From: Gemmatimonadota bacterium
Lineage (GTDB): Bacteria; Gemmatimonadota; Gemmatimonadetes; Longimicrobiales; Gaopeijiaceae
Reading direction: 5' to 3'
Assembly (NCBI GenBank): GCA_028873845.1
Contig: JAPPNO010000038.1
Span: 1 to 64,000, forward strand
Length of the DNA stretch: 64,000 nucleotides
The notes under the pieces are model-generated. The model was not told where the DNA came from, searched no databases, and worked only from the letters and a program-made list of their open reading frames with translations. The translations under genes and the position numbers were made by a program. This document shows, one piece after another, positions 52,762 to 56,500 of this stretch (its first letter is position 1; every line of letters starts with the position of its first letter).

Positions 52762-54132
52762 ATGCGGATTCCCGAACACATCTTTCGCGAGTACGATATT
52801 CGGGGCGTCGTCGGCGAGGATCTGGACCCCGGCGTGGCGGAGGCGGTCGGGCGGGCCTACGGGTCGGAGTTGCGCGGACGGCTGGCAGGTGCGGTCCCCC
52901 GCGTCGTGGTGGGCGCGGACAATCGCCCCTCCTCACCGGTCCTGCGCCGCGGGCTGGTGCGCGGTCTGCGGTCGGCCGGTTGCGACGTCGTCCAGCTGGG
53001 AACCGTCCCCACCCCCGTCGCCTACTTCAGCGAGTACGAATTCGCCGCCGACGGCGCGGTGCAGATCACCGGGTCCCACAACCCGCCCGAATACAACGGG
53101 ATCAAGATGACGATGGGGAAGGGCTCCGTGTACGGCGATGCGATCCAGGGTCTGCTGCGGCGCATTCGCACGGGGGACGTGGCGGTGGGTGACGGGGGAC
53201 TCGAGACCGTCGACCCGCTGCCCGCATACGTGGCCGACGTGTCGGGACGGTTCCGGATAGACCGCCCGGTGAAGGCGGTTGTGGACTGCGGAAACGGGAC
53301 CGGCGCGGTCATCGCCGTCGAGCTGCTGGAGGCGGTGGGATTCAAGGTGATTCCGCTCTACTGCGAATCGGACGGGACCTTCCCGAACCATCACCCCGAC
53401 CCGACCGTGGACGAGTACGTGCGGGACATGATCGCGGCCGTGCGGGATCACGGCGCCGAGGTGGGAATCGGGTTCGACGGGGACGCGGACCGGATCGGGG
53501 TGGTGGACGACCGTGGACGGATCGTTCGGGGCGACATTCTCCTCCTCCTCTTCGGCCTCGATCTCCTGCGGCGGCGGGGACCGGATCAGACGCTGGTCTT
53601 CGACGTGAAGTGCTCCCAGGTGCTGGCCGAAGTGTTCGAGCAGGCCGGCGGCGTGCCGGTCATGTGGAAGACGGGCCACTCGCTGATCAAGGAGAAGATG
53701 AAGGAGACGGGGGCGCCGCTCGCGGGGGAGCTCTCGGGGCACATCTGCTTCGCCGACGGCTACTACGGCTTCGACGACGCCCTCTACGCGGCCTGCCGCC
53801 TGGGCGAACTGCTCGCGGGCTCGGACCGTCCGCTCTCGGCGATGACTGGGGCGCTGCCGGCGTACGAGTCCACCCCCGAGCTGCGCATCGAGGTGGCGGA
53901 GTCGGACAAGTTCGGGATCGTGGAGCGTGCCGTCGAGCACTTCAGCAGCCGGCACGAGGTCATCGCGGTGGACGGGGTGCGCGTTCTCTTCGGCGACGGG
54001 TGGGGGCTGATCCGCGCCTCGAACACGCAGCCGGTGATCGTGGCGCGGTATGAGGCGAGGACGCAGGACCGGTTGGCGGAGATTCAGGAGACGATGGGGG
54101 GCTGGCTTCGTGACCAGGGGGTCGCAATCTGA
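52762..54132 (+). CDS. Phosphomannomutase/phosphoglucomutase
   Basis: FREYDIRGVVGEDL, QITGSHNPPEYNGIKM, GIGFDGDADRIGVVDDRG, RASNTQPVIVARYEA. Confidence 0.95.
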   Translation: MRIPEHIFREYDIRGVVGEDLDPGVAEAVGRAYGSELRGRLAGAVPRVVVGADNRPSSPVLRRGLVRGLRSAGCDVVQLGTVPTPVAYFSEYEFAADGAVQITGSHNPPEYNGIKMTMGKGSVYGDAIQGLLRRIRTGDVAVGDGGLETVDPLPAYVADVSGRFRIDRPVKAVVDCGNGTGAVIAVELLEAVGFKVIPLYCESDGTFPNHHPDPTVDEYVRDMIAAVRDHGAEVGIGFDGDADRIGVVDDRGRIVRGDILLLLFGLDLLRRRGPDQTLVFDVKCSQVLAEVFEQAGGVPVMWKTGHSLIKEKMKETGAPLAGELSGHICFADGYYGFDDALYAACRLGELLAGSDRPLSAMTGALPAYESTPELRIEVAESDKFGIVERAVEHFSSRHEVIAVDGVRVLFGDGWGLIRASNTQPVIVARYEARTQDRLAEIQETMGGWLRDQGVAI

Positions 54133-54321
54133 GCTGAGCGAATGCCAGGGGTGGTGGGGGGATGTGGCGCTGTCCCATTTTGCTATGTAGGCGTCCCGCC
54201 CGGCGCCCCATCTTCGTGCGTACAACCCCGGGTCCGGGAACCCGGTCCGGGTCTTACGGCTCAACGCAGACCATTGGGTGGCCTTGCAGCGAGCCCATAT
54301 ACGCACGGAGGCAGCCACCGG

Positions 54322-55500
54322 ATGGCAACGCGAGAGATCGGGCGGAAGGGCCAGAGAACCGAAATGAAATGCCGCGCCCCAGTGTGGCGCGAAGCCGTGG
54401 GAATTGCTGGCCGCGCCTCCGTCCTGCTCTCATGCATCCCCGTCGCCGCCTGTGACACGGCGGGCAGGGAGATGCCGGCGGCTGCCCTCGTCGCCTTCGC
54501 CGACGCGCGGGAAACCGACAGATCCGGCGATACGATGCTCATCGACATGGAGACCTTTGGGCGCGCCTTCGAAATCCGGCGCCGACTGGTCCTCGAAGAG
54601 ACCGACCAGGCCATGACGGTGCTTCCGATGGTCTCGGTCGGCGCCCTTGGCGAGTTTCTACTTGCCGAACCCCAGGAGGGTCAGGTCAATGTGTACGACA
54701 CGGCTGGCCGTCTCCTGCGCGTTGTCGGCCGGAGGGGTGAGGGTCCGGGCGAGTTCCGTGCGCCGATTTCGGCTCGGAAGACACTGGATGGGGGGATCAT
54801 GGTCGCGGACGTGATGCTGTCGCGCCTCACACTCTACCCTCCCTGGGGGAGCGGGGAGCCCGAAGTGCTGGCGTCGCCGCTGCCACTTGTTGTGGGAGCC
54901 CAGGATCTGGGAGGTAGCCGGTATCTGCTGTCGGGTCAGGTGATGACCGATAGGCAGCCTCACCTTCTGCACATCTGGGATCGCGAGGCCGACGAGGTGG
55001 AGCGCAGCTTCATGCCCATCGGCGTACCCGAGGAATCGCGCCCGTACGCGGCCTCCTACACCTCGGTTGACGCGGTTCCGGAGGGCGACACCATCTGGGC
55101 CGTATGGGCCCTTTCGGACACGCTGTACAAGTTCGACAGGGATGGTGGGGTGCTCGAGAGATTCCCGCTGTCGCTGCCGAGGCCGATGGGTGTGCTGCCA
55201 GGGGCGGAGGCTGGAGTCATCACCGACCCGAGGGCCCGACAGGCTGCCGCCGAGAGCCTCACGCAGGTCAACAGCGTCTTCCTGCTCGGCGATGATGCGC
55301 TGGTTGTGCAAACCATGCAGGCGCGGGGTTTCGATGCCGTATGGGACCTGATCATCGTGGACCGGCAGGGTGCACGGCTGTGGGGCGCGGCCAGGATGCC
55401 TCGATTGTTCGCGGTTGCGGGGGACCTCTTCTACTTCAGCGATCCGGCTTCCCTGTTCCCCAATCATTGGATCGTGGCGCGGTGGCGGGGGGATGGGTGA
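54322..55500 (+). CDS. 6-bladed beta-propeller lipoprotein
   Basis: Lipobox-like PVAACDT; VYDTAGRLLRVVGRRGEGPGEFRAP NHL-like blade; repeated blade pattern; GGAGG RBS. Confidence 0.7.
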   Translation: MATREIGRKGQRTEMKCRAPVWREAVGIAGRASVLLSCIPVAACDTAGREMPAAALVAFADARETDRSGDTMLIDMETFGRAFEIRRRLVLEETDQAMTVLPMVSVGALGEFLLAEPQEGQVNVYDTAGRLLRVVGRRGEGPGEFRAPISARKTLDGGIMVADVMLSRLTLYPPWGSGEPEVLASPLPLVVGAQDLGGSRYLLSGQVMTDRQPHLLHIWDREADEVERSFMPIGVPEESRPYAASYTSVDAVPEGDTIWAVWALSDTLYKFDRDGGVLERFPLSLPRPMGVLPGAEAGVITDPRARQAAAESLTQVNSVFLLGDDALVVQTMQARGFDAVWDLIIVDRQGARLWGAARMPRLFAVAGDLFYFSDPASLFPNHWIVARWRGDG

Positions 55501-55501
55501 G

Positions 55502-56074
55502 ATGAGGCGACCGGTCCCACACCTGTGGATTCGGGCCCTCGCGCTGGTATCGTGGGCGGCGCTTGGGGGCGCCTGTTCCGGGTCCGGGTCGTCGAACGCC
55601 GGGGGGATCGTCGTCGGAGAACCGCTGCCGGACATCGCGCTGTCCGGAGAGCGGCCGGCGCTGGTCTGGGTGGTCGGCGTCGAGCAATGCCTGGGATGTG
55701 AACTGGGCGATGCCGCCTGGACCGTCAGATCGCTTCAGCGTCAATTCGGCGGACGCATCGAGACGGTGGTCGTGGCGGTCGGGGAGGGGCGGGAGGAGGA
55801 CAGGAAGCTCGTCAGCGATTTCCTGGCGTCCCAACGAGTATCGGCCGGGGTGGAGCTGCGGACCACAAAGCGGTACCTGCGGCACTACGGGCCAACGCCG
55901 CTCTCGGTCTTCTACCTCGTGAATCGGAGAGCGGTGGTCGAGGCGGTGATCGCGGCCGACTCGGCGCGGTTCCGGCGATCGGCGGACGGCCGCGGGCAGA
56001 GCATCGCTGATCTTGTTGAATCGATTGCGAACGATGAAGTCGAATCAGGGGAGGGATCCGGCATGCGGCAATAG
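55502..56074 (+). CDS. Thioredoxin-like (CLGC) lipoprotein
   Basis: Lipobox ALGGACSGSG; VGEPLPDIALSGERPALVWVVGVEQCLGCELGDAAW. Confidence 0.65.
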   Translation: MRRPVPHLWIRALALVSWAALGGACSGSGSSNAGGIVVGEPLPDIALSGERPALVWVVGVEQCLGCELGDAAWTVRSLQRQFGGRIETVVVAVGEGREEDRKLVSDFLASQRVSAGVELRTTKRYLRHYGPTPLSVFYLVNRRAVVEAVIAADSARFRRSADGRGQSIADLVESIANDEVESGEGSGMRQ

Positions 56075-56120
56075 GTCTTGCCATACACCAAACAATTCTG
56101 ACAGGAGAGGATCAGGACCA

Positions 56121-56348
56121 ATGAAGAACTTTGTTCAGTCTATCAGGATTCGTACGATCGCTGCAGCAAAAGCCGTCGCAATCGCGGCGGTGATGGCAGT
56201 CGGGGTTCCGGCCTTGACCGGCACGTCAGTCGCGACGGCTCAGGCCTGGGACATCCCCAGATTGGAGGTCCGGATCGGGCCGTTCAAGATATGCCCGGTC
56301 TACTGCTTCATTCCCGGATACTGCTGCAAGCTCGAAGGCGTGCTGTAA
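56121..56348 (+). CDS. Small secreted Cys-rich peptide precursor (75 aa)
   Basis: Signal peptide ending SVATAQA; predicted mature WDIPRLEVRIGPFKICPVYCFIPGYCCKLEGVL; upstream AGGAGAGG. Confidence 0.6.
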   Translation: MKNFVQSIRIRTIAAAKAVAIAAVMAVGVPALTGTSVATAQAWDIPRLEVRIGPFKICPVYCFIPGYCCKLEGVL

Positions 56349-56500
56349 CCCCCGGGACTCGTCCGTGGCCCACAATCCTCGCATGCCTGGGCCCCGGGCC
56401 ACGGGCTCGAATGGCCATTTCTCCCCTGGAAGCCGGCGGACTCCTGTTACGGGTCCGCCGGTGCAACCACTCCGGGTGCGGCGCGACCCCGGCGGCGAAG

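Follow-up and report, generated by a model that had tools for sequence, protein, structure and literature searches.

Three genes on one strand lie between a phosphohexomutase gene and a convergent operon in contig JAPPNO010000038.1, and the question that they raise is whether they act as one exported system and, if so, what that system would handle. An earlier note, made from the letters of the window (the whole stretch of 64,000 nucleotides analyzed here), had read them as a beta-propeller lipoprotein, a CxxC thioredoxin-like lipoprotein and a four-cysteine secreted peptide that work together. We found that the three genes are one conserved unit: across many related bacteria, they change place, increase in copy number and disappear together.

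The three genes and their flanks

The 5′ neighbor of the cassette is the phosphohexomutase gene (52762-54132, + strand) and the 3′ neighbor is a convergent PIG-L-type deacetylase/ABC/HlyD/TolC operon (56501 onwards, − strand). All three + strand ORFs between them were called as genes in the window by a codon-usage gene finder trained on long ORFs from the window and related loci. ORF1 (54322-55500) encodes a six-bladed beta-propeller lipoprotein of 392 aa with the lipobox SCIPVAAC/D. An alternative ATG at 54364 would yield 378 aa; the start at 54322 is favored because homologs align from that position and lack the internal Met at 54364. ORF2 (55502-56074) encodes a thioredoxin-like lipoprotein of 190 aa with the lipobox ALGGAC/S and a CLGC motif; a second possible start for ORF2, the ATG at 55493, overlaps the propeller stop codon. 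For ORF3 (56121-56348), which encodes an exported peptide precursor of 75 aa, the gene call is joined by the existence of homologs and by purifying selection. The placement of the three ORFs given in the earlier note is correct, and the two lipoboxes, the AQA cleavage site and the four cysteines that it described are all present.

The cassette is also framed by conserved non-coding sequence. A block of ~50 bases upstream (54171-54220, + strand) is nearly identical in four orthologous loci, in intergenic DNA that has otherwise diverged, and likely holds the cassette promoter; no sigma-70 consensus was found. The 3′ boundary is marked by a perfect 9-bp inverted repeat, CCGGCGGAC...GTCCGCCGG (56433-56461, + strand), conserved in four orthologous loci, which is possibly a two-way terminator and was missed by a terminator scan because it lacks a T run. 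Together, the two elements would suit an operon that is transcribed from a promoter of its own and has a defined end. No Rfam family was detected in the stretch.

The family profile of the propeller matches NHL six-bladed propellers in the PDB at 3e-27, and PF17170 (DUF5128) matches 12 of the 14 propeller homologs, with a best value of 5e-7. The propeller from the window itself scores 15.3 bits against PF17170, for which the curated cut-off is 22.9. The family lies near the DUF5128/NHL propellers and forms a distinct subfamily of exported lipoproteins found together with peptides. A search of plasmids with the propeller yielded no match. Single-sequence AlphaFold models of the two lipoproteins (mean pLDDT 41 and 36) were too poor and were discarded.

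The peptide precursor begins with a predicted Sec-type signal peptide of 42 residues (56121-56246, + strand), with a basic n-region, a hydrophobic core and an AxA motif, and the AxA-type signal, read from the sequence, recurs across homologs. Cleavage is predicted after ATAQA, that is, between ...TAQA and WDIPRLEVRIGPFKICPVYCFIPGYCCKLEGVL, leaving a mature peptide of 33 aa with the pattern C-x3-C-x5-CC (56247-56345, + strand). In an alignment of 26 peptides from three families, the four cysteines (C58, C62, C68 and C69) are the sole invariant columns, and Pro30 in the signal peptide is nearly invariant; the pattern across homologs is C-x3/4-C-x4-9-CC, with a predicted mature length of 30-40 aa. 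Compared with its nearest complete orthologue, the 75-aa gene has a dN/dS of 0.30 (17.8 synonymous and 19.2 non-synonymous differences), equal in the leader and the mature part, so the ORF is constrained as a protein. For the same genome pair, dN/dS is 0.27 for the propeller gene, 0.49 for the thioredoxin-like gene and 0.18 for the phosphohexomutase gene. No model in Pfam or NCBIfam matches the 75-aa peptide, and a profile search of the PDB with the peptides returned nothing meaningful.

Distribution, linkage and loss

Of the 23 genomes of the genus, 15 carry a homolog of the 75-aa ORF, as do members of five further genera (three families). When the 75-aa protein was searched against 126 genomes of the family, the clear orthologs in the genus had identities of 79%, 81% (over 47 residues), 51%, 37% and 39%; reading the sequences in the weak tail of this search revealed real relatives that keep the four cysteines. 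Within the genus, the propeller, the CxxC protein and the peptide lie at an orthologous site between the phosphohexomutase and PIG-L genes, with one to three peptides. Two tandem peptides are present at this site in G012, G018, G020 and G024, and three divergent ones in G017, G027, G029 and G032.

With a peptide profile (A2), a search of 399 genomes of the phylum reached another family, f7, in which three genomes gave matches (E 1e-10 to 3e-8). In two of these, two peptides accompany a propeller and a thioredoxin-like gene at an unrelated position, and the third has a peptide with a decayed pair. A profile of the thioredoxin-like protein found the same genomes within the family as the peptide profile, added four genomes of family f3 in a class-wide search and, order-wide, added G041. 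The six f3 loci that were read each combine a propeller, a thioredoxin-like gene and a Cys-peptide, and RND pump genes flank three of these loci; G041 again has a propeller and a peptide. Loci reached by the peptide profile alone (f7) held the propeller and the thioredoxin-like gene, and loci reached by the thioredoxin-like profile (f3, G041) held peptides. One further match of the thioredoxin-like profile (G267, 2.5e-9) turned out to be a plain TlpA-like gene with a DsbD/CcdA-like neighbor (L204:6532-7799) and no cassette, and serves as a negative.

Overall, the propeller/CxxC pair is accompanied by peptides at ~10 chromosomal sites. Apart from the phosphohexomutase/PIG-L site, these include a site by his genes in G062, a site after LipB in f7, and sites in f3, G041, G020 (C37), G032 (157 kb) and G012 (C78). 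Gene order varies between sites: at the phosphohexomutase/PIG-L site, G036 has the order thioredoxin-like, peptide, propeller, peptide, and at a further site, in G017 (C199), the order is peptide, propeller, thioredoxin-like, peptide. G012, G017, G020 and G032 carry second copies of the cassette with peptides of their own, in some cases close to integrase or transposase genes. The earlier note had reasoned that its proposal would fall if no conserved peptide homologs stood beside propeller/thioredoxin pairs; such homologs are present at all these sites, and together with the joint loss described below they bear out the view of the trio as one exported system. The tandem divergent peptides of relatives, the several chromosomal sites, the variable gene order and the loss as a unit are features that the note did not contain.

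The adjacency was also counted. Within 1.1 kb of 28 propeller/thioredoxin-like pairs there are 42 ORFs that fit an exported Cys-peptide pattern and in the other 356 kb there are 0, in a set of loci of which many were picked via the peptide and ~10 were found via the thioredoxin-like gene alone. The association of peptides with the pair is thus far beyond chance. Two of the 28 loci lack a match to the Cys-peptide pattern, one because it reaches the contig end (L119) and the other because its peptide has a longer spacing (L121).

Several loci depart from the common arrangement. At L191:8398-9194, a thioredoxin-like gene without CxxC is followed directly by a Cys-peptide, with no propeller nearby, an exception that weighs against the envelope scheme set out below. 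In G033 (L036:10446-13244), a transposase-like gene and a second, distant propeller are inserted just downstream, along with a partial PIG-L duplicate. A 97% identical copy of the cassette in a Latescibacterota MAG (L004, JAAXHH010000063.1) was considered as a case of cross-phylum spread and rejected, because it lies on a 1.3-kb contig, the MAG lacks the flanking phosphohexomutase, and the other 15 genomes of that class lack the thioredoxin-like gene; it looks like a binning contaminant.

Neither a confident peptide nor the thioredoxin-like gene is present in eight of the 23 genomes of the genus. The flanks of the site in G023 are 95% identical to those in G024, but all that is left of the cassette region in G023 is a 102-bp stretch that derives from immediately before the first peptide; compared with G020, scraps of the propeller gene are left in G013 and G015. 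These are deletions from a full cassette state, and the loci of whole-cassette deletion that bear such remnants are L129, L130 and L133, in close relatives with flanks 95% identical to those of full loci. In G284, the propeller and thioredoxin-like genes have collapsed to one short ORF and the adjoining peptide is intact. The G014 assembly lacks the first half of the peptide gene.

Thioredoxin-like partner, proposed mechanism and alternatives

The active-site-like motif of the thioredoxin-like protein, CLGC, is encoded at 55688-55699 (+ strand). Across 18 homologs from families f1 and f7, the lipobox Cys25 and the C63, L64 and C66 of this motif (CLxC) are invariant. The best PDB match of the family profile is ResA, a weak match (E 0.003) that covers profile positions 69-147, after the motif. 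No Pfam thioredoxin family matches the protein in the window, Thioredoxin_2 matches only one of 13 homologs, weakly, and the thioredoxin cis-proline is not conserved, the candidate Pro varying across homolog alignments. The protein resembles ResA and TlpA, which are reductants in known systems, in being membrane-anchored and exported, with a CxxC after the first predicted strand and a putative thioredoxin-like segment, but differs from them in lacking a Pfam thioredoxin match and a conserved cis-Pro, and in having a peptide as its genomic partner.

The first Cys of the CxxC motif is gone in three of the six f3 homologs and in G041 (L184:9333-9824, L186:8947-9480, L189:2746-3264 and L205:6825-7304, with GLAC, YLTC, YLKC and GSC among them), and the peptides that neighbor these proteins in f3 and G041 still have at least four Cys. 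Across all 23 aligned thioredoxin-like proteins, only C66, R76 and R112 are invariant. Given the loss of the first Cys in some homologs and the lack of a conserved cis-Pro, the system cannot work everywhere through a classical two-Cys oxidoreductase. Beside f3 proteins that keep CxxC, there are peptides with six Cys in the pattern CxxCC...CC...C (L185:8878-9090, L187:4727-4999, L188:6554-6793). The idea that the number of peptide Cys tracks the state of CxxC was dropped, as the 3:3 split holds in f3 and fails elsewhere.

A single ORF of 578 aa in G020 (L075:9618-11351, − strand) encodes both the propeller and the thioredoxin-like protein, the latter having lost its lipobox. This fusion puts the two on one side of the membrane and speaks for their joint action.

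We lean towards the reading that the products of the three genes make up an envelope system centered on small disulfide-rich peptides, in which the pair of lipoproteins handles the exported and cleaved peptide. In such a system, Sec would export the precursor and signal peptidase would cut after AxA, releasing a peptide of 30-40 aa. The ResA/TlpA-like lipoprotein would then engage the peptide cysteines as an oxidase, isomerase or reductase, leaving the right disulfides or free thiols. It is plausible that this protein sets the state of the peptide Cys where CxxC is kept; ResA as the best PDB match, the invariance of CLxC in f1 and f7 and the G020 fusion point in this direction. The propeller lipoprotein, acting with the thioredoxin-like protein on the same side of the membrane, could bind the peptide as its holder or receptor. 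Since multiple, divergent peptide copies arise next to a helper pair that remains single, the peptides are most readily understood as the product or ligand of the system. The likeliest purpose, and the weakest step in this scheme, would be that of a secreted or surface-presented signal or interaction peptide.

Other explanations share parts of this evidence. The two or three divergent tandem peptides, the patchy distribution, with the entire unit missing from 95%-identical relatives, and the transposase and integrase genes near second copies would also suit a bacteriocin-like antagonist of close relatives, with the propeller conferring self-immunity or capturing the peptide and the thioredoxin-like protein folding it. 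We regard such an antagonist as rather unlikely, given that peptide dN/dS is below 1 in nearly all pairs with no clear positive selection, the net charge of the mature peptide is low, neither a dedicated exporter nor a GG leader was seen, and PADLOC matched none of the three genes. The peptide could instead belong to a periplasmic redox complex of propeller and thioredoxin-like protein, as its third subunit or as an inhibitor; its small size, the shared compartment, the propeller-thioredoxin fusion and the invariant Cys would allow this. A single helper pair with two or three divergent peptides is better suited to a ligand or product, and we consider the subunit or inhibitor reading unlikely.

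A role in metal binding is quite improbable. Under this explanation, the four Cys, whose C-x3-C...CC arrangement could hold a metal, would be kept reduced for loading by the ResA-like protein, in line with ResA as the best match and with the reductant role of ResA and TlpA in known systems, and the propeller would be the holder. However, the gap between the second Cys and the CC pair ranges from 4 to 9 residues, the aligned peptides have no conserved His, Met or Asp ligands, and some thioredoxin-like homologs lack the first Cys. Finally, the peptide belongs to no family library and is known from DNA alone, as might be expected if three unrelated exported genes were chance neighbors and the 75-aa ORF were no gene. 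This explanation is refuted by the comparative data: linkage at ~10 independent sites, invariant Cys, purifying selection and the contrast of 42 matches with none. Our preferred reading remains an envelope system in which the lipoprotein pair serves the peptide.

Relationship to NVEALA peptides and significance

The NVEALA peptides of Bacteroidota (PF14055) are small exported Cys-containing precursors found near six-bladed propeller and TlpA-like proteins. The loci described here likewise combine an exported small Cys-peptide with a six-bladed propeller, close to DUF5128/PF17170, and a thioredoxin-like protein; the Bacteroidota side of this comparison is taken as background. However, PF14055 matched none of 24 cassette peptides and gave no match in the 23 genomes of the genus, in a search in which a Bacteroides positive control was matched. 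The earlier note had described the peptide as analogous to NVEALA and unrelated to it in sequence, and at the sensitivity of Pfam the latter holds. Because PF14055 gives no match, we do not count the cassette in the NVEALA family but regard it as a variant design of the NVEALA kind, which may work alike. In a literature search, we found no paper describing the three-gene system, and none for NVEALA or DUF5128.

Annotation overlooks most small exported peptides of uncultured bacteria. Starting from one 75-aa ORF, the comparison arrived at more than 40 peptides whose partners are fixed and which span at least three families; this gives a concrete handle on the role of DUF5128-kind six-bladed propeller lipoproteins and makes the link between peptide, propeller and thioredoxin testable in a laboratory host. 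We tentatively suggest, as a possibility short of a probable conclusion, that these cassettes represent undescribed exported-peptide systems, widespread though patchily distributed across several families of one phylum (probably Gemmatimonadota), which would be a counterpart of the Bacteroidota NVEALA loci. The propeller/thioredoxin-like pair would present or mature diversifying four-Cys signal peptides, and some lineages would have turned the redox partner into a holder through loss of the first Cys. If it is true that the NVEALA loci of Bacteroidota share this design, the peptide system would be common to two phyla.
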